From Pseudomonadota bacterium (GTDB taxonomy: Bacteria; Pseudomonadota; Gammaproteobacteria; Burkholderiales; Burkholderiaceae_F), in NCBI GenBank assembly GCA_029778535.1, contig JAKOQB010000041.1:124001-188000 (forward strand): a stretch of DNA of 64,000 bases. Reading direction: 5' to 3'. Position 1 is the stretch's first letter. Each line of letters begins with the position of its first letter. This document shows, in pieces, positions 2,760 through 26,339 of this stretch. Position numbers and translations under genes: made by a program. The notes beneath the pieces are model-generated. The model had not been told where the DNA came from. It made no database searches and saw nothing but the letters and a program-made list of their open reading frames with translations.

Positions 2760-2775
2760 GGTGACCTGGGTCACA
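2760..2775. promoter_or_regulatory. CRP/FNR-superfamily-like palindrome GGTGA-N6-TCACA
   Basis: GGTGACCTGGGTCACA upstream of the SQR-like gene; GTGACC/GGTCAC perfect arms. Confidence 0.5.
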
Positions 2776-2790
2776 TACCCCGACCCGTAT
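2775..2790. promoter_or_regulatory. Candidate (degenerate) CsoR-family operator ATACCCCGACCCGTAT
   Basis: ATAC...GTAT ends and C-tract resemble the perfect site at 4592-4607; same 16-bp length. Confidence 0.4.
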
Positions 2791-2862
2791 CGCTTCTAGG
2801 TTAGCGCCTGGCTGCGGCGCCGACGACCGGCGCCGGCGACAGAGAACAGGGAGACTATTCAT

Positions 2863-4140
2863 ATGGCACACGTCGTCGTGATGGGCGCGGGCCTCGGCGG
2901 CCTGCCGATGGCCTACGAGATGAAGGAACTGCTGCGGTCGGACGACCGCGTCACGGTGGTCGGGCTGGGTGCGAGCTACAGCTTCGTGCCGTCGAATCCG
3001 TGGGTCGCGGTGCACTGGCGCAAGCGCAGCGACATCGAGTTCGCGGTCGCGCCGTACCTCGAGAAGAAGGGCATCGCGTACGACGGCCGCGGTGTGAAGC
3101 GCGTGCACCCGAAGGAGAACCGGGTCGAGCTCGCCGACGGCTCGAGCCTCGCATACGACTACCTGGTGATCGCGACGGGACCCAAGCTCGCGTTCGACGA
3201 GATCGAGGGGCTGGGGCCGAACGGGCACACGCAGTCGATCTGCATGGTCGATCACGCGGAGAAGGGCGCGTCGGCTTGGGACGCATTCGTCAAGGCGCCG
3301 GGGCCGATCGTGGTCGGCGCGGTGCAGGGCGCGTCGTGCTTCGGCCCCGCGTACGAGTTCGCATTCATCATGGAGACCGACCTGCGGCGGCGCAAGATTC
3401 GCGACAAGGTGCCGATGACGTTCGTCACCTCCGAGCCGTACATCGGCCACCTGGGACTGGGCGGCGTCGGCGATTCGAAGTCGATGCTCGAATCGGCGCT
3501 GCGCGAGCGGCACATCAAGTGGATCTGCAACGCCAAGGTCACCAAGGTCGAACCCGGCAAGATGTACGTGACCGAGCACGACGACGAGGGCAAGCCGAAG
3601 AAGGAGCACGTGCTGCCGTTCGCCTACTCGATGATGCTGCCGGCGTTCAAGGGTGTCGATGCGGTGTTCGGCATCGAGGGGCTGACCAATCCGCGCGGCT
3701 TCATCCTGATCGACGAGCACCAGCGCAATCCCACGCACAAGAACATCTACGCCGTCGGCGTCGCCGTGGCGATCCCGCCGGTGGAGGCCACGCCGGTGCC
3801 GACCGGCGCGCCGAAGACCGGTTTCATGATCGAGTCGATGGTGACCGCCACCGCGCACAACATCCGCGAACAGATGGACGGCAAGGAGCCGAGCCACAAG
3901 GCGACGTGGAACGCGGTATGCCTGGCGGACATGGGCGACACCGGCATCGCGTTCGTCGCGCTGCCGCAGATTCCGCCGCGCAACGTCAACTGGTTCAGCG
4001 AGGGCAAGTGGGTGCACCTCGCCAAGATCGCATTCGAGAAGTACTTCATCCGCAAGCTCAAGAAGGGCACGTCGGAGCCCTACTACGAGAAGTTCGTGAT
4101 GAGTGCGCTCGGCATCACCAAACTGAAGGAAAAGGTGTAA
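2863..4140 (+). CDS. sqr: Sulfide:quinone oxidoreductase-like FAD-dependent oxidoreductase
   Basis: N-terminal dinucleotide fold VVVMGAGLGGLPMAYE; GASCFGPAYEF motif; Cys at positions 127, 159 and 353 of the protein; C-terminal membrane-binding type region. Confidence 0.8.
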   Translation: MAHVVVMGAGLGGLPMAYEMKELLRSDDRVTVVGLGASYSFVPSNPWVAVHWRKRSDIEFAVAPYLEKKGIAYDGRGVKRVHPKENRVELADGSSLAYDYLVIATGPKLAFDEIEGLGPNGHTQSICMVDHAEKGASAWDAFVKAPGPIVVGAVQGASCFGPAYEFAFIMETDLRRRKIRDKVPMTFVTSEPYIGHLGLGGVGDSKSMLESALRERHIKWICNAKVTKVEPGKMYVTEHDDEGKPKKEHVLPFAYSMMLPAFKGVDAVFGIEGLTNPRGFILIDEHQRNPTHKNIYAVGVAVAIPPVEATPVPTGAPKTGFMIESMVTATAHNIREQMDGKEPSHKATWNAVCLADMGDTGIAFVALPQIPPRNVNWFSEGKWVHLAKIAFEKYFIRKLKKGTSEPYYEKFVMSALGITKLKEKV

Positions 4141-4143
4141 CGC

Positions 4144-4542
4144 ATGGCAACGCAAGTCAAATACGGCTTCGGCAAGACGGTCGCGCTCGGCTTCGACGCG
4201 GCGATCGAGAAGGTCACGCAGGAACTGGCGAAGGAGGGTTTCGGCATCCTGACCGAGATCGACGTGCAGGCGACGCTGAAGAAGAAGCTCGGCATCGACG
4301 GGCTGCCGTACCGGATCCTCGGCGCGTGCAATCCGCCGTTCGCGCACAAGGCGCTGTCGGCGGAGCCGCAGATCGGGCTGCTCCTTCCGTGCAACGTGGT
4401 GGTGCGGCAGGATGAGGCCGGCCGCGTGCTGGTCGAGTTCATGGACCCGGAGGCGGTGCTGAAGCTGGTCGACCGCGCCGAGGTCGCGCCGATCGCGGCC
4501 GAGGTGAAGGCGCGGCTGCAGCGGGTGATGGCCGCGCTGTAG
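4144..4542 (+). CDS. DUF302 domain-containing protein
   Basis: FDAAIEKVTQELAKEGFGILTEIDVQATLKKKLG...YRILGACNPPFAHKAL...GLLLPCNVVV is the typical DUF302 signature. Confidence 0.9.
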   Translation: MATQVKYGFGKTVALGFDAAIEKVTQELAKEGFGILTEIDVQATLKKKLGIDGLPYRILGACNPPFAHKALSAEPQIGLLLPCNVVVRQDEAGRVLVEFMDPEAVLKLVDRAEVAPIAAEVKARLQRVMAAL

Positions 4543-4549
4543 CTGCGCG

Positions 4550-4565
4550 TGTGAGGCACGTCACA
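4550..4565. promoter_or_regulatory. CRP-like palindrome TGTGA-N6-TCACA
   Basis: TGTGAGGCACGTCACA, exact match to the CRP half-site consensus and spacing. Confidence 0.55.
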
Positions 4566-4591: not shown

Positions 4592-4607
4592 ATACCCCCA
4601 GGGGTAT
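4592..4607. promoter_or_regulatory. Candidate CsoR-family operator ATACCCCCAGGGGTAT
   Basis: Perfect 7-bp dyad ATACCCC/GGGGTAT with 2-bp centre, 30 bp upstream of the RND adaptor ORF; CsoR-family gene lies in the same gene run. Confidence 0.7.
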
Positions 4608-4636
4608 CATCCGGCCGCAAGGATTCCTCTCACCGG

Positions 4637-5713
4637 ATGCTCACGATGCAACGCAGGACCCTGATCGCCGCCGCCGCTGCCGCAGTGGCGCTCGCCGCGG
4701 GCGCGGCGCTGCATGCGCAGAACAAGGGCGCGCCCGCGCCGGTCGACGCGCCCGCGCCGGCGGCGCGGCCCGCCACCGCCGAGGTGCAGTTGCGCACCGT
4801 GGCCGATGTCTATGCCGCCGACGCGGTGATCGAGGCGGTGCGGCAGGCCACCGTGTCGGCGCAGATCTCCGGCACGGTCACGCAGTTCTTCGTCGATGCC
4901 GGTGACCGCGTCAAGCGCGGCCAGTTGCTGGCGCGCATCGACGCGCGCGAGACCGACGCGCAGGTTGGCAGCGCGCGCGCCAACGTCGCACAGGCGCAGG
5001 CGGCGCTGGCTCAGGCCAGGCTGAACTACGATCGGACCGCGAGCCTGGTCAAGAGCAATTTCGTCAGTCAGGCCGCGCTTGACAAGGCCGACGCGGACCT
5101 GAAGAGCGCGCAGGCCGCGCTCGACGCGGCGCGCGCCGGCACCAGCCAGGCGATGACCGCGCGCAGCTTCGCCGAGGTGCGCTCGCCGATCGACGGCGTG
5201 GTCTCGCGCCGGCTGATGGAGCGGGGCGAGCTGGCCGCACCCGGCAAGCCGGTGGTCGAAGTGTTCGATCCCGCCGCGCTGCGAGCGGTGGGCGCGGTGC
5301 CGCAGTTCGTGATGGCGCGCGCGGCGCGCGCCGACCGCGCCACCGTGCAGTTGCCGACTCTGAATCACACGGTCGCGGCGACCAAGCTCACGCTGCTGCC
5401 GGCGGCCGACCCCAGGCTGCTGTCGACGCAGGTGCGCGCCGATCTGCCACAACAACTGCCGGCCGGCGTGGTGCCCGGCACCGCGGCCAAGATCCTGCTG
5501 CCGATCGGCACCGCCACCCGGCTCGTGATGCCTGCTGCGGCGCTGATTCGTCGCGGCGAACTGGCGCTCGCCAACGTGGTCGGCGCCGACGGCAAGCCGC
5601 AACTGCGGCAGATCCGCGTCGGCGACCCGGTCGAGGGACAGCAGGTCGAAGTGCTCGCGGGCCTGGCGGCCGGCGAGCGGGTGCAACTGAATCCGCTGCT
5701 GGCGAAGCAATGA
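4637..5713 (+). CDS. Efflux RND transporter periplasmic adaptor subunit (MFP)
   Basis: Signal peptide, lipoyl-like barrel (ISGTVTQFFVDAGDRVKRGQLLARID), alpha-hairpin, RSPIDGVVSRRLMERGE. Confidence 0.92.
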   Translation: MLTMQRRTLIAAAAAAVALAAGAALHAQNKGAPAPVDAPAPAARPATAEVQLRTVADVYAADAVIEAVRQATVSAQISGTVTQFFVDAGDRVKRGQLLARIDARETDAQVGSARANVAQAQAALAQARLNYDRTASLVKSNFVSQAALDKADADLKSAQAALDAARAGTSQAMTARSFAEVRSPIDGVVSRRLMERGELAAPGKPVVEVFDPAALRAVGAVPQFVMARAARADRATVQLPTLNHTVAATKLTLLPAADPRLLSTQVRADLPQQLPAGVVPGTAAKILLPIGTATRLVMPAAALIRRGELALANVVGADGKPQLRQIRVGDPVEGQQVEVLAGLAAGERVQLNPLLAKQ

Positions 5714-8700
5714 GCATCGCCGAGAACACCGCAAAGCTCGGCATATCGGGCCGCATCGCGCGCGCATTTCTCACGTCGCAGCTGACGCCGTTGCTGGCGT
5801 TGCTGGCGCTGCTCGCGGGCCTGTTCGCCGTGCTGGTCACGCCGAAGGAGGAAGAGCCGCAGATCAACGTCACGATGGCCAACGTGCTGATCCCGTTCCC
5901 CGGCGCGTCCAGCGAGGACGTGTACCACCTGGTTACGGTGCCGGCCGAGCAGGTGATCGCGCAGATCACCGGGATCGAGCACGTGTTCTCCGTCACGCGG
6001 CCGGGCCTGGCGATCCTGACCGTGCAGTTCAAGGTCGGCGAGGACCGCATCGCCGCGCTGGTGCGGCTGCACGACACGCTGCGCGCCAATTCCGATTGGC
6101 TGCCGCGGTACCTCGGCGTCGCCGACCCGATCGTCAAGCCCAAGGGCATCGACGACGTGCCGATCGTCACGCTGACGCTGGCGAGCGCGCGCGCGGACGC
6201 GACCGCGGAGAGCCTGCAGCGGATCGCGCACGCGCTGGAAATCGAGTTGAAGCGCGTGGCGGGCACGCGCGAGGTCGCAACCGTCGGCGGCCCCGATGAG
6301 GTCGTGCGAGTCACGCTCGACCCCGAGCGGATGGCCGCACACCGCGTCACCGTGACCGACATCGAGCGCGCGCTGCGCGCGACCAACGCGTCGGCGCCGG
6401 CGGGCGAACTCGTCGGCGGCAACCGCACGGTCGACGTGCGCGCCGGCGAGTTCTTCGGGTCGGCGCGCGACGTGGCGCAGCTTGTGGTCGGCGTCTCCGG
6501 CGACGCGATCGCGCGCCATCCGGTGTACCTGAGCGACGTCGCGCGCGTCGTCGCCGGCGCCGACACGCCGACCCGGTTCGTGTGGCACGGCGAGAAGATC
6601 GACGGCAACTACGTCGAAACGCCCGCGGTGACGATCTGGGTGTCGAAGAAGGCCGGCGAGAACGCGGCCACCGTCGCCGACGCCGTGCTGGCGCGCGTGG
6701 CGGAACTGAAGGGCACCGTGATCCCGAGCGATACGCAGGTCACGGTCACGCGCAACTACGGCGACACCGCGCGCGACAAGGCGAACAAGCTGATCCAGAA
6801 ACTGATCTTCGCCACGCTGTCGGTGGTGGCGCTGGTGTGGGCCACGCTCGGCCGCAGGGAAGCGATCGTGGTCGGCGCCGCGGTCGTGCTGACGCTGGCG
6901 GCCACGCTGTTCGCGTCGTGGGCCTGGGGCTTCACGCTGAACCGCGTGTCGCTGTTCGCGCTGATCTTCTCGATCGGCATTCTGGTCGACGACGCGATCG
7001 TGGTGGTGGAGAACATCCACCGCCGCTCGGCGTTCGATCACGCGCCGCCGACCGAGATGATCCCGCGCGCCGTCGACGAGGTCGGCGGCCCGACCATCCT
7101 CGCCACGCTGACGGTGATCGGCGCGCTGCTGCCGATGGCGTTCGTCACCGGGCTGATGGGCCCGTACATGGCGCCGATCCCGATCAACTCGTCGATGGGC
7201 ATGCTGCTGTCGCTGGCGATCGCGTTCGTCGTCACGCCATGGCTGGCGCTGCGGCTGCTGCACAAGCACCTCGGCGCCCACGCCGCGCCGGCAGCGGCCG
7301 ACAAGCTGTCGCAGAGGCTGGCCGCATTTTTCACCCGCGTGATGACGCCGCTTTTGCGCGGCGAAGCCGGCCGCGGCAATCGCCGCAAGCTGTGGCTCGG
7401 CATCGGCATCGCGATCCTGCTGTCGGTGGCGCTGGTGCCGCTGAAGTGGGTCGTGCTGAAGATGCTGCCGTTTGACAACAAGAGCGAGTTCCAGGTCGTG
7501 GTCGACATGCCGACCGGCACCGCGGTCGAACGCACCGCCGGCGTGCTGCGCGAACTCGCGGCCGAGATCGCCAAGGTACCGGAGGTCACGAACATCCAGG
7601 CCTACGCGGGGCTGGCGGCGCCGATCAACTTCAACGGGCTGGTGCGGCAGTACTACCTGCGTTCCGGCGGCGAGGTCGGAGACCTGCAGGTGAACCTGGT
7701 CGACAAGCACCAGCGCGAGCGCAAGAGCCACGACATCGCGCAGGCCGTGCTGCCCGCGCTGCAGGCGATCGCGAAGAGGGACGGCGCCGACATCAAGGTG
7801 GTCGAGGTGCCGCCCGGGCCGCCGGTGCTCAGTCCCATCGTGGCCGAGATCTACGGCCCCGACTACGACGCGCAGATGAAGCTCGCCAAGCAGGTGCGCA
7901 AGGTCTTCGAGGCCACGCCCGACATCGTCGCGATCGACGACACCACGCTCGACCCGGCGCCGCGCATCGTGCTGCGGGTGGACGCCGCCAAGGCGGCGCT
8001 GTACGGCATCGCCGCCGCCGACGTGGCGCGCACCGCGCAGCTCGCGCTCGCCGGCGAGGACATCACGCCGCTGCACGACGGAGTCAGCAAGCACGCGGTG
8101 CCGGTGCGGGTGGCGCTGGCGCCGGAGAAGATGGGTCGGCTCGACGACGTGCTCAAGCTCAGGCTGCGCGGACAGGACGCGCGCGGCCAGCCGTACGACG
8201 TCGCGCTGGCGGAGCTGGTGCATCCCGTGACGCTGCCGGCCGAGCGCGTGATCTACCGCAAGGACCTGCAGCCCGTCGTGTACGTCGTCGGTGATGTCGC
8301 GGGCGGCAAGGGCAGGACCGATTCGCCGCTGTACGGGATGTTCGAGCTGCGCGACGGCATCAAGAGGCTCGCCACGCCGGGGGCGCTGCCACTGCGGGAG
8401 CACTGGATCGCGCAGCCGTCGGACCGCTTCCGCGAATTCGGCCTGAAGTGGGACGGCGAGTGGCAGATCACCTACGAGACCTTCCGCGACATGGGCATCG
8501 CCTATGGCGTCGGCCTGATACTGATCTACCTGCTGGTGGTGGCGCAGTTCCGCTCGTACCTGACGCCGCTGATCATCATGGCGCCGATCCCGCTGACGAT
8601 CATCGGCGTGCTGCCGGGGCATGCGCTGTTCGGCGCGCAGTTCACCGCGACGTCGATGATCGGCATGATCGCGCTGGCCGGCATCATCGTGCGCAACTCG

Positions 8701-9015
8701 ATCCTGCTGGTCGATTTCATCCACCAGCGGCTCGGCGAGTGCGGCGACCTGCAGCGCTCGACGATCGACGCTGCGGCCGTGCGCGCCAAGCCGATCGTGC
8801 TGACCGCGGTGGCGGCGATGCTCGGCGCGCTGTTCATTCTCGACGACCCGATCTTCAACGGGCTCGCGATCTCGCTGCTGTTCGGCATCTTCGTGTCGAC
8901 GGCTCTGACGCTGATCGTGATCCCGGTTCTGTATTACGCGGCGACGTGGCGGCAGGAAGCCGCCCGCGCGTGCGCGGCCGAACCCGCGGTTCGAACCCAC
9001 CCTCAAGGAGCCTGA
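5710..9015 (+). CDS. Efflux RND transporter permease subunit (AcrB/MexB-like superfamily)
   Basis: 1101 aa; GILVDDAIVVVENIHRR, VDMPTGTAVERT, GIIVRNSILLVDFIHQR; ATGA overlap with adaptor gene. Confidence 0.95.
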   Translation: MSIAENTAKLGISGRIARAFLTSQLTPLLALLALLAGLFAVLVTPKEEEPQINVTMANVLIPFPGASSEDVYHLVTVPAEQVIAQITGIEHVFSVTRPGLAILTVQFKVGEDRIAALVRLHDTLRANSDWLPRYLGVADPIVKPKGIDDVPIVTLTLASARADATAESLQRIAHALEIELKRVAGTREVATVGGPDEVVRVTLDPERMAAHRVTVTDIERALRATNASAPAGELVGGNRTVDVRAGEFFGSARDVAQLVVGVSGDAIARHPVYLSDVARVVAGADTPTRFVWHGEKIDGNYVETPAVTIWVSKKAGENAATVADAVLARVAELKGTVIPSDTQVTVTRNYGDTARDKANKLIQKLIFATLSVVALVWATLGRREAIVVGAAVVLTLAATLFASWAWGFTLNRVSLFALIFSIGILVDDAIVVVENIHRRSAFDHAPPTEMIPRAVDEVGGPTILATLTVIGALLPMAFVTGLMGPYMAPIPINSSMGMLLSLAIAFVVTPWLALRLLHKHLGAHAAPAAADKLSQRLAAFFTRVMTPLLRGEAGRGNRRKLWLGIGIAILLSVALVPLKWVVLKMLPFDNKSEFQVVVDMPTGTAVERTAGVLRELAAEIAKVPEVTNIQAYAGLAAPINFNGLVRQYYLRSGGEVGDLQVNLVDKHQRERKSHDIAQAVLPALQAIAKRDGADIKVVEVPPGPPVLSPIVAEIYGPDYDAQMKLAKQVRKVFEATPDIVAIDDTTLDPAPRIVLRVDAAKAALYGIAAADVARTAQLALAGEDITPLHDGVSKHAVPVRVALAPEKMGRLDDVLKLRLRGQDARGQPYDVALAELVHPVTLPAERVIYRKDLQPVVYVVGDVAGGKGRTDSPLYGMFELRDGIKRLATPGALPLREHWIAQPSDRFREFGLKWDGEWQITYETFRDMGIAYGVGLILIYLLVVAQFRSYLTPLIIMAPIPLTIIGVLPGHALFGAQFTATSMIGMIALAGIIVRNSILLVDFIHQRLGECGDLQRSTIDAAAVRAKPIVLTAVAAMLGALFILDDPIFNGLAISLLFGIFVSTALTLIVIPVLYYAATWRQEAARACAAEPAVRTHPQGA

Positions 9016-9018
9016 CCC

Positions 9019-9240
9019 ATGACCGTCGACCGTCTGATCCGCATCTTCGCCGGTACCTTCATCCTGCTCTCGCTTGCCCTCGGTATCGAAGGCAGCCCGA
9101 TCTTCGTTTCGAAGTGGTGGCTGGCGTTCACCGCGTTCGTCGGCGCCAACCTGTTCCAGTACGGGTTCACGAACGCGTGCCCGCTGGGCTGGATGCTGAA
9201 GAAGCTCGGCGTGCCAGAGTCGAAGGTCGCCTGCGCGTAA
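9019..9240 (+). CDS. DUF2892 / YgaP-type inner membrane protein
   Basis: 73 aa, two hydrophobic segments, TVDRLIRIFAGTFILLSLALG...NLFQYGFTNACPLGWMLKKLGV. Confidence 0.85.
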   Translation: MTVDRLIRIFAGTFILLSLALGIEGSPIFVSKWWLAFTAFVGANLFQYGFTNACPLGWMLKKLGVPESKVACA

Positions 9241-9248
9241 CGACGACC

Positions 9249-9527
9249 ATGAACGGGCAGAGCAACGCCGACGACGCGCGCCGCGAACTGGTGCTGCGCC
9301 TGAAGCGGGTCGAGGGGCAGATTCGCGGCGTCGCCGGTATGATCGATGCCAGCGCCGACTGCGAGCAGGTCGCGCAGCAGCTCACCGCGGCGCGCAGGGC
9401 GCTCGACAAGGCGTTCTACGAGCTGATGGCGTGCGCGATCCAGCACCCGCAGTTCTCGGCCAACCAGCGCGAGCGCCAGCAGGCGCGCGTCGAACGCATC
9501 ATGCGCGTGTTGACGAAACTCGGTTGA
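9249..9527 (+). CDS. CsoR/FrmR/CstR-family metal- or persulfide-sensitive transcriptional repressor
   Basis: LVLRLKRVEGQIRGVAGMIDASADCEQVAQQLTAARRALDKAFYELMACAIQ; family helical core and first Cys. Confidence 0.88.
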   Translation: MNGQSNADDARRELVLRLKRVEGQIRGVAGMIDASADCEQVAQQLTAARRALDKAFYELMACAIQHPQFSANQRERQQARVERIMRVLTKLG

Positions 9528-9542
9528 ACCCGGAGTCGAACG

Positions 9543-9818
9543 ATGGAACTGAGATTCGAAGTCGAGAACGTCAAGTGCGGCGGCTGCGCCCGCACGATTG
9601 AGAAGACGCTGCGCGCCGACGCGCGCATCGCGCGGGTGGCGGTCGATCCGGCCGCGGGCGTTGTGGTGATCGAGGCCGCGGGCGACGTGCGCGCCGAGGC
9701 GGCGGCGGCGCTGGCCCGCATCGGCTATCCAGAAAGGGGTTCGGTCGTGGGGCTGCGTTCAGCGGCCGCCGCCGCGAAGTCGCTGGTGAGCTGCGCGGTC
9801 GGCCGCGTCGGCGCCTGA
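9543..9818 (+). CDS. Heavy-metal-associated (HMA) domain protein
   Basis: [23 protein letters not shown]: CxxC metal-binding loop. Confidence 0.85.
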
Positions 9819-24854: not shown

Positions 24855-26339
24855 ATGCACCCGATGACACTCGAACTCGAAACCGCTGCCAACCAGGAGA
24901 ACCTGCGGCGCGTCGCGATCGACCCGGTGTCGCGTGTCGAGGGGCACGGCAAGGTCACGATCCTGCTCGACGCCGACGGCCACGTGCACCAGGTGCGGCT
25001 GCACATCGTCGAGTTCCGCGGCTTCGAGAAATTCATCCAGGGCCGGCCGTACTGGGAGGTGCCGGTAATGGTGCAGCGGTTGTGCGGCATCTGCCCGGTC
25101 AGCCATCACCTCGCGGCGTCCAAGGCGCTCGACATGATCGTGGGCAGCAAGCTCACGCCGACCGCGGAGAAGATCCGCCGGCTGATGCACTACGGCCAGA
25201 TCCTGCAGTCGCACGCGCTGCACTTCTTCCACCTGTCGGCGCCCGACCTGCTGTTCGGCTTCGATGCGGAGGTGGAGCGCCGAAACATCGTCGGCATCGC
25301 CGCCGCCTATCCCGAGATTGCGAAGCAGGGCGTGCTGCTGCGCAAGTACGGGCAGGAGGTGATCCGTGTCACCGCCGGCAAGCGCATCCACGGCACGGGA
25401 AGCGTTCCCGGCGGCGTAAACAAGGCGCTGACGGTCGCGGAGCGCGACGCGTTGCTGGCGGACATCTACCAGGTGATCGCCTGGTCGCGCGACGCGGTGG
25501 CGCTGGCGCAGAAGCTGCATCTTTCCAACGTGAATCGGTACAACAGCTTCGGCGCGTTCCGCTCCCACATGCTGAGCCTGGTCGCGGCCGACGGCGCACT
25601 GGATCTCTACGACGGCGCGCTGCGCGCGCGCGACGAGAACGGTGCGATCCTGTTCGATCACTTTGACACCCGCCGCTACTGGGACGCGATCGTCGAGGAA
25701 GTGCGGCCGTGGTCGTACATGAAGTTCCCGTACCTGCGCGCGCTCGGCCCGGAGCGCGGCTGGTACAAGGTCGGGCCGCTGGCGCGGGTGCAGAACTGCG
25801 ACCACATCGCCACGCCGTTCGCCGACGCGGCGCGGCGTGAGTTCATCGACTTCGGCGGCAGCCAGCCGGTGCACGCCACGCTCGCGTACCACTGGGCGCG
25901 GATGATCGAAATGCTGTTCGCGGCCGAGTGCATCAAGGAGCTGCTGCACGACGGCGACCTCACCGGCACCGAGCTGATGGCGCCGCCGGGCGAGCGCGCC
26001 GAGCGCGGCATCGGTGTGATCGAGGCGCCGCGCGGCACGCTGATCCACCACTACCGGGTGAACGAGGAGGACCTGGTCGTGCGCGCCAACCTGATCGTCT
26101 CGACCACGCACAACAACCAGGCGATGAACGAGGCGATCCGCCAGGTGGCGAAGCGCTACCTCGACGGCCGCAAGCTCACCGAGGGGCTGCTCAATCACAT
26201 CGAGGTCGCGATCCGCGCGTTCGATCCGTGCCTGTCGTGCGCGACGCACGCGCTGGGCCGGATGCCGCTTGCGATGGAACTGATCGACTCCGACGGCAGC
26301 GTCGTCGATCGGCTCGTGAAAGGTTCCGACGCATGTTGA
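24855..26339 (+). CDS. hoxH: NAD-reducing [NiFe] hydrogenase large subunit HoxH
   Basis: [13 protein letters not shown] (L1) and [17 protein letters not shown] (L2) Ni-Fe ligation motifs with C-terminal peptide. Confidence 0.96.

Follow-up and report, generated by a model that had tools for sequence, protein, structure and literature searches.

To our knowledge, the direct regulators of sqr genes described so far belong to the ArsR, CsoR/CstR and two-component families or are sigma-54 activators. SqrR, BigR and YgaV of the ArsR family as well as FisR regulate sqr or ygaP genes in response to sulfide (PMC9774250, PMC7315123), and CstR/CsoR-family regulators of sulfur oxidation include TTHA1953 of Thermus (PMC10318464). 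In the sqr-pdo cluster of Bacillus licheniformis, the repressor YrkD, a CstR homolog, and the activator NreBC jointly control sulfide oxidation including sqr (PMC9918477).

The locus analyzed here is located in a stretch of 64,000 nucleotides, referred to as the window. A preliminary description had placed a composite site, consisting of a CRP-like and an abutting CsoR-like palindrome, ahead of its SQR gene. The features of the locus are as follows.

2761..2774, + strand: predicted CRP/FNR-superfamily activator box GTGACCTGGGTCAC in putative class II position (perfect GTGAN6TCAC; enrichment in relatives; regulon geometry; genome-wide composite rarity; matrix score)
2775..2790, + strand: degenerate CsoR-like dyad ATACCCCGACCCGTAT between box and -10, doubtful (3 mismatches in 14 positions)
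2797..2802, + strand: predicted -10 element TAGGTT, exactly 22 nt 3' of the box
2863..4140, + strand: SQR, sulfide:quinone oxidoreductase gene (Pyr_redox_2; solved SQR 3sz0, E 1.9e-170)
4144..4542, + strand: DUF302 gene (PF03625, E 9e-28), presumably co-transcribed with the SQR gene
4550..4565, + strand: CRP-like palindrome TGTGAGGCACGTCACA (CRP core without mismatch; low score with the regulon matrix)
4592..4607, + strand: predicted operator of the CsoR type, ATACCCCCAGGGGTAT, within the promoter of the RND adaptor gene (no other perfect copy genome-wide; conserved in relatives)
4605..4610, + strand: candidate -10 element TATCAT for the RND operon, sharing positions with the CsoR dyad (from the sequence)
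4637..5713, + strand: RND periplasmic adaptor (membrane fusion protein) gene (TIGR01730 above cut-off)
5710..9015, + strand: RND permease gene (PF00873)
9019..9240, + strand: gene for a YgaP-like transmembrane protein (PF11127)
9249..9527, + strand: CsoR-family repressor gene, the only one of the genome (PF02583; C-x23-C, cysteines conserved in close relatives)
9543..9818, + strand: gene for a heavy-metal-associated (HMA) domain protein (PF00403)

Predicted activator box and -10 element at the SQR promoter

Both palindromes are present with the letters and coordinates given previously, GGTGACCTGGGTCACA at 2760-2775 and ATACCCCGACCCGTAT at 2775-2790, the A at position 2775 being common to them. 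They are not equally good candidates for regulatory sites, and the activator half is the better supported one. A reading of the palindromes as terminators was rejected: no T-run comes after either of them, and no + strand terminator is listed there by the terminator scan.

Based on the 22-nt distance to the predicted -10 element, the box would be centred at -41.5, which is a class II position, and sqr transcription would start near position 2809. TAGGTT matches TATAAT at only three of six bases. A consensus promoter scan reported no promoter at SQR, plain sigma-70 promoters included, which fits a dependence on an activator and proves nothing. With a matrix score of 21.4, the box ranks high among the sites of the regulon (15.7-22.2).

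GTGAN6TCAC is enriched in the 4.77-Mb genome (102 occurrences vs 12 for the reversed control), yet it is not rare. Likewise, TGTGAN6TCACA with at most one mismatch is found at 22 places (6 in the control); the ORFs next to the near-perfect sites elsewhere share no theme, and many of these sites are located inside ORFs. The case for the SQR box thus comes from geometry and from relatives, and not from the palindrome alone. The composite of box and -10 element, GTRAYN4RTYAC-N22-YANNNT, has exactly two matches in the genome (whose assembly is marked as 7.6% contaminated), namely ahead of SQR and at the junction between a regulator gene and a DUF2892 gene on contig C125. Since the reversed control also yields one match, it is the two locations and not the count of two that constitute the evidence. 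A third GTGAN6TCAC of the window (GTGATCCGTGTCAC, 25359-25372) lies within a 494-aa hydrogenase-large-subunit-like ORF and is probably there by chance.

A cysteine-rich CRP/FNR-family regulator and its predicted regulon

Six CRP/FNR-family proteins of the genome were examined. The one with a DUF2892 neighbour is encoded at positions 1958-2671 of contig C125, followed by a YgaP-TM/DUF2892 gene, and has its own box with 22-nt spacing at this junction. Its recognition helix is of the CRP type (AVSRESISR, with SRESISR), for which GTGA-type reading is expected. Three cysteines (Cys52, Cys86, Cys92) located in the cyclic-nucleotide-binding-type domain are invariant in 49 of 49 homologs, and this protein probably responds to reactive sulfur or redox and not to a nucleotide. 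For 3dv8, the solved structure closest to it, the description goes no further than Crp/Fnr-family regulator. In the structure predicted for the homolog from locus L053 (mean pLDDT 68.9) the sensor domain is mostly confident and the DNA-binding half poor. No named member of the subfamily turned up in the libraries searched, and we found no report of a tested member in the open-access literature. In two loci (L053, L064; 5.4-7.7 kb) a gene for a PAS-domain sigma-54-type activator-like protein, which resembles a sulfide regulator of the FisR kind, adjoins the cysteine-rich CRP-family gene.

Of 369 genomes sampled across the class, 35 encode a homolog of the C125 regulator. A DUF2892 gene usually follows it immediately, and a GTGA-N5/6-TCAC box lies between the two genes in 32 of 44 loci. 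Both box lengths, GTGA-N5-TCAC and GTGA-N6-TCAC, are present among the regulator-DUF2892 loci L151-L191: homologs with a G(T/S)ARE helix mostly go with N5 and those with a GSVRE or VSRES helix with N6, exceptions being L160 and L187-L190. In a group of 46 promoters, which was gathered partly by similarity and includes close relatives, a -10 element follows the box at exactly 22 nt in 28 cases, compared with 0-6 at other offsets and never more than 8 at any offset in shuffles. The corresponding figure for the regulator-DUF2892 loci alone is 17 of 32. When 32 composite sites were inspected (two from the window genome and 30 from related genomes, of which 31 were scanned), 13 were found at most 450 bp before DUF2892, DUF302, RND-adaptor, YgaP-TM or SQR genes. 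Further composites of box, 22 nt and -10 element precede a DUF302 gene (G448:C16:13721-13762) and a second adaptor-like gene (C53:25622-25663).

Promoters of RND/SQR clusters contain GTGAN6TCAC in 5 of 34 cases, with 0.09 expected, and none of 47 SQR-only loci has it. All seven genomes with a box at the RND/SQR gene set possess the cysteine-rich regulator; the sister genus (L005/G009, G034, G023) and L011 have neither box nor regulator. Four genomes of this family unite the regulator with DUF2892, the RND set and SQR in one cluster of about 12 kb; the single GTGAN6TCAC box of these genus-g4 clusters is located ahead of DUF2892 and not ahead of SQR. The SQR gene lies downstream of the adaptor gene in L005 and L118, and the upstream contig is missing in G002. 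With SQR internal to the operon in the closest genomes, an alignment of orthologous SQR upstream regions is uninformative; an orthologous SQR promoter with the gene order of the window was not found, so that conservation of the box holds for the promoters of the regulon and not for that of SQR itself. We conclude that GTGACCTGGGTCAC is very probably a real activator site. Support for a CRP/FNR-type site ahead of SQR comes from the motif and its spacing, from adjacent genes, and from co-occurrence and regulon membership among relatives.

The predicted CsoR-type operator and the second pair of palindromes

The perfect dyad ATACCCCNNGGGGTAT is present in a single copy in the genome, at 4592. It is conserved at the orthologous promoters of L005, L118 and L243, where it overlaps or abuts a -10 element; the relatives have TACAGT, TATAGT or TATGAT at dyad+15. 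A perfect and conserved dyad over the promoter and a CsoR gene in the same operon point to 4592-4607 as the real CsoR operator of the locus. The genome's only other CsoR-like dyad with at most two mismatches (G000:C26:21594-21609; L124 7595-7610) is located between a gene for a DNR-type regulator and a TonB-dependent-receptor-like gene, close to a gene resembling that of cytochrome cd1-type nitrite reductase. TACCCCATAGGGTA (L205, position 2639) precedes an SQR-like gene in another family of the class; this SQR-like gene adjoins a gene for a C-x23-C CsoR-family protein.

The CsoR-family protein of the window does not show the Cys-His-Cys set of copper sensors, as it has C-x23-C, no histidine at position y and no cysteine at position z. 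Nor does it have the C-x28-C spacing of CstR, its second cysteine being located five residues earlier. The gene context is nevertheless CstR-like: genes for SQR, RND, YgaP-TM and CsoR are consecutive in G034, whose contigs are consistent with one operon over two contigs in the order DUF302, dyad, adaptor, SQR, RND, YgaP-TM, CsoR. Homologs in other genomes adjoin metallo-beta-lactamase, sulfate permease, 5'-nucleotidase_C/SoxB-like and SQR-like genes. Based on the cysteines and these gene neighbourhoods we infer that the protein may be released from DNA by reactive sulfur.

At the SQR promoter the inverted ATACCCC/GGGGTAT arms are incomplete, with seven of seven matches in the left and four of seven in the right arm. 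The CsoR-like half of the proposed composite is supported for the operator at 4592 and is in doubt for the degenerate copy at 2775, whose ATAC also trails activator boxes lacking a dyad elsewhere (L053, L064, L068, L072, L156, L164, L165, G448). The SQR dyad could be a weak operator, the remnant of an operator or the ATAC flank of the activator box.

The pair at 4550-4565 and 4592-4607 does recur in the same order as at SQR, as previously noted; its members are, however, separated by 26 nt and not abutting. The repetition of the pair had been taken to make chance less likely, an argument that turned out to be weak. The 4550 box scores 11.6 with the regulon matrix (range 15.7-22.2), so that 34 of 50 further GTGAN6TCAC sites rank higher in a comparison that covers 50 distinct places of the 102 in the genome. 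No -10 element follows it at offset 22, and the orthologous promoters of L005 and L118 lack this box; its placing would be compatible with class I, at about -60. Strict scans for pairs of CRP-like and CsoR-like sites in 80 loci gave scattered matches only. The RND-adaptor promoter of G002, a genome of the same family, reads GTGACTGGCATCAC-ACCTTGT-ATACCCCTAGGGGTAT-ACAGT, that is, a putative class II box and, within the spacer, a perfect CsoR dyad. Box and dyad are 7 nt apart there compared with 27 nt at the RND promoter of the window, where the box is located 20 bp further upstream. Combined control of one promoter by activator and repressor, as originally suggested, is plausible from this single relative, whereas the repetition within the window contributes little to it.

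Proposed mode of control and comparison with known systems

A true composite at the SQR promoter would mean that a CRP-family activator and a CsoR-family repressor, the latter on the degenerate spacer dyad, both bind there, and that expression needs loading of the one and release of the other. The G002 promoter has the same build with a perfect dyad, the SQR dyad lies between box and -10 element, where a repressor would act, and the (post hoc) probability of a 16-mer with at most three mismatches in a 125-bp stretch is 0.0006. On the other hand, the right arm CCCGTAT deviates from GGGGTAT at three positions, the register is shifted by 7 nt relative to G002, and no relative has box and dyad together at SQR. 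Moreover, a window-wide scan for the 14-mer core with at most two mismatches gave four matches where 5.0 are expected, which is not above chance, and ATAC, part of the left arm, is also found behind the activator box in genomes without the dyad. A repressor site at SQR is possible, and we rate the composite reading as rather doubtful.

The activator box might also belong to another CRP/FNR protein, either the CRP-like protein encoded on contig C36 or an oxygen or NO sensor of the FNR/DNR type, in which case sulfide oxidation would be coupled to energy or oxygen status; the same could apply to the box at 4550. The genome encodes at least five other CRP/FNR-family proteins, and the S-R-D (R-D) recognition helix of the C36 protein may read GTGA as well. 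FNR-type sites (TTGAN6TCAA) are present at the same promoters in L011, L065 and L070, and an FNR-like gene adjoins the box in L013-L015. However, FNR and DNR recognise TTGA rather than GTGA, and by adjacency and co-occurrence the box group and its spacing follow the cysteine-rich regulator, which makes control by one of these other proteins unlikely. Even less can be said for chance palindromes in a GC-rich intergenic region: the low score of the 4550 box and the degenerate 2775 dyad, which weaken the repeated-pair argument, would agree with it, but the rarity of the composite, its location and its enrichment across genomes at the same gene families make it a very improbable explanation.

We therefore favor, as the likely mode of control, transcription of the SQR-DUF302 operon from a class II promoter that the C125 protein activates, with the RND operon controlled mainly by its own CsoR-family protein. 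The C125 protein would bind to GTGACCTGGGTCAC at -41.5, taking the role of a -35 element, and would recruit RNA polymerase. At ATACCCCCAGGGGTAT the CsoR-family protein would cover spacer and -10 element of the RND promoter, to be released from this operator by reactive sulfur. In at least one relative both controls may act on one promoter, and a contact of the CsoR-family protein at SQR of the window is conceivable.

It is tempting to speculate that the three-cysteine CRP/FNR subfamily comprises one-component (per)sulfide- or redox-sensing activators of a sulfide-defence regulon (YgaP-TM/DUF2892, DUF302, RND pump, SQR). In some lineages these might act on single promoters jointly with a CsoR-family persulfide repressor, which would bind an operator occupying the spacer, resulting in a two-input gate that needs both activator loading and repressor release; we put this general model forward as tentative. 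From a CRP-family activator of this kind, functions could be predicted for DUF2892, DUF302 and the RND pumps linked to SQR. The signature of box, 22 nt and -10 element would make sulfide-response genes searchable in many uncultured sulfur bacteria, and with activator palindrome and repressor site together in a relative, two-switch control of sulfide oxidation becomes testable.

SqrR, BigR, YgaV and FisR resemble the proposed regulators in their sulfide-responsive control of sqr or ygaP genes; they belong to other protein families and use different DNA sites. A CRP-family activator with fixed promoter geometry would thus add a class of sqr regulator. With CstR and TTHA1953 the protein of the window shares membership in the CsoR family, two cysteines, the absence of the copper His/Cys set, a location beside sulfide genes and an inverted repeat operator of the TAC/GTA type. 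It differs in its C-x23-C spacing, as opposed to C-x28-C in the best aligned solved sequence, and in its operator, ATACCCCNNGGGGTAT. The activator promoter has the hallmarks of class II CRP/FNR promoters, i.e., inverted GTGA/TCAC half-sites with a 6-bp centre, a -10 element 22 nt downstream and an activator that would replace the -35 element, the difference being that the predicted activator is a member of the cysteine-rich CRP/FNR subfamily. B. licheniformis, where a CsoR/CstR-type sulfane-sulfur repressor is accompanied by a separate activator, offers a precedent in kind for joint control. NreBC, however, is a two-component system, whereas here the activator would be a one-component CRP-family protein and the gene set includes an RND pump, DUF302 and YgaP-TM.
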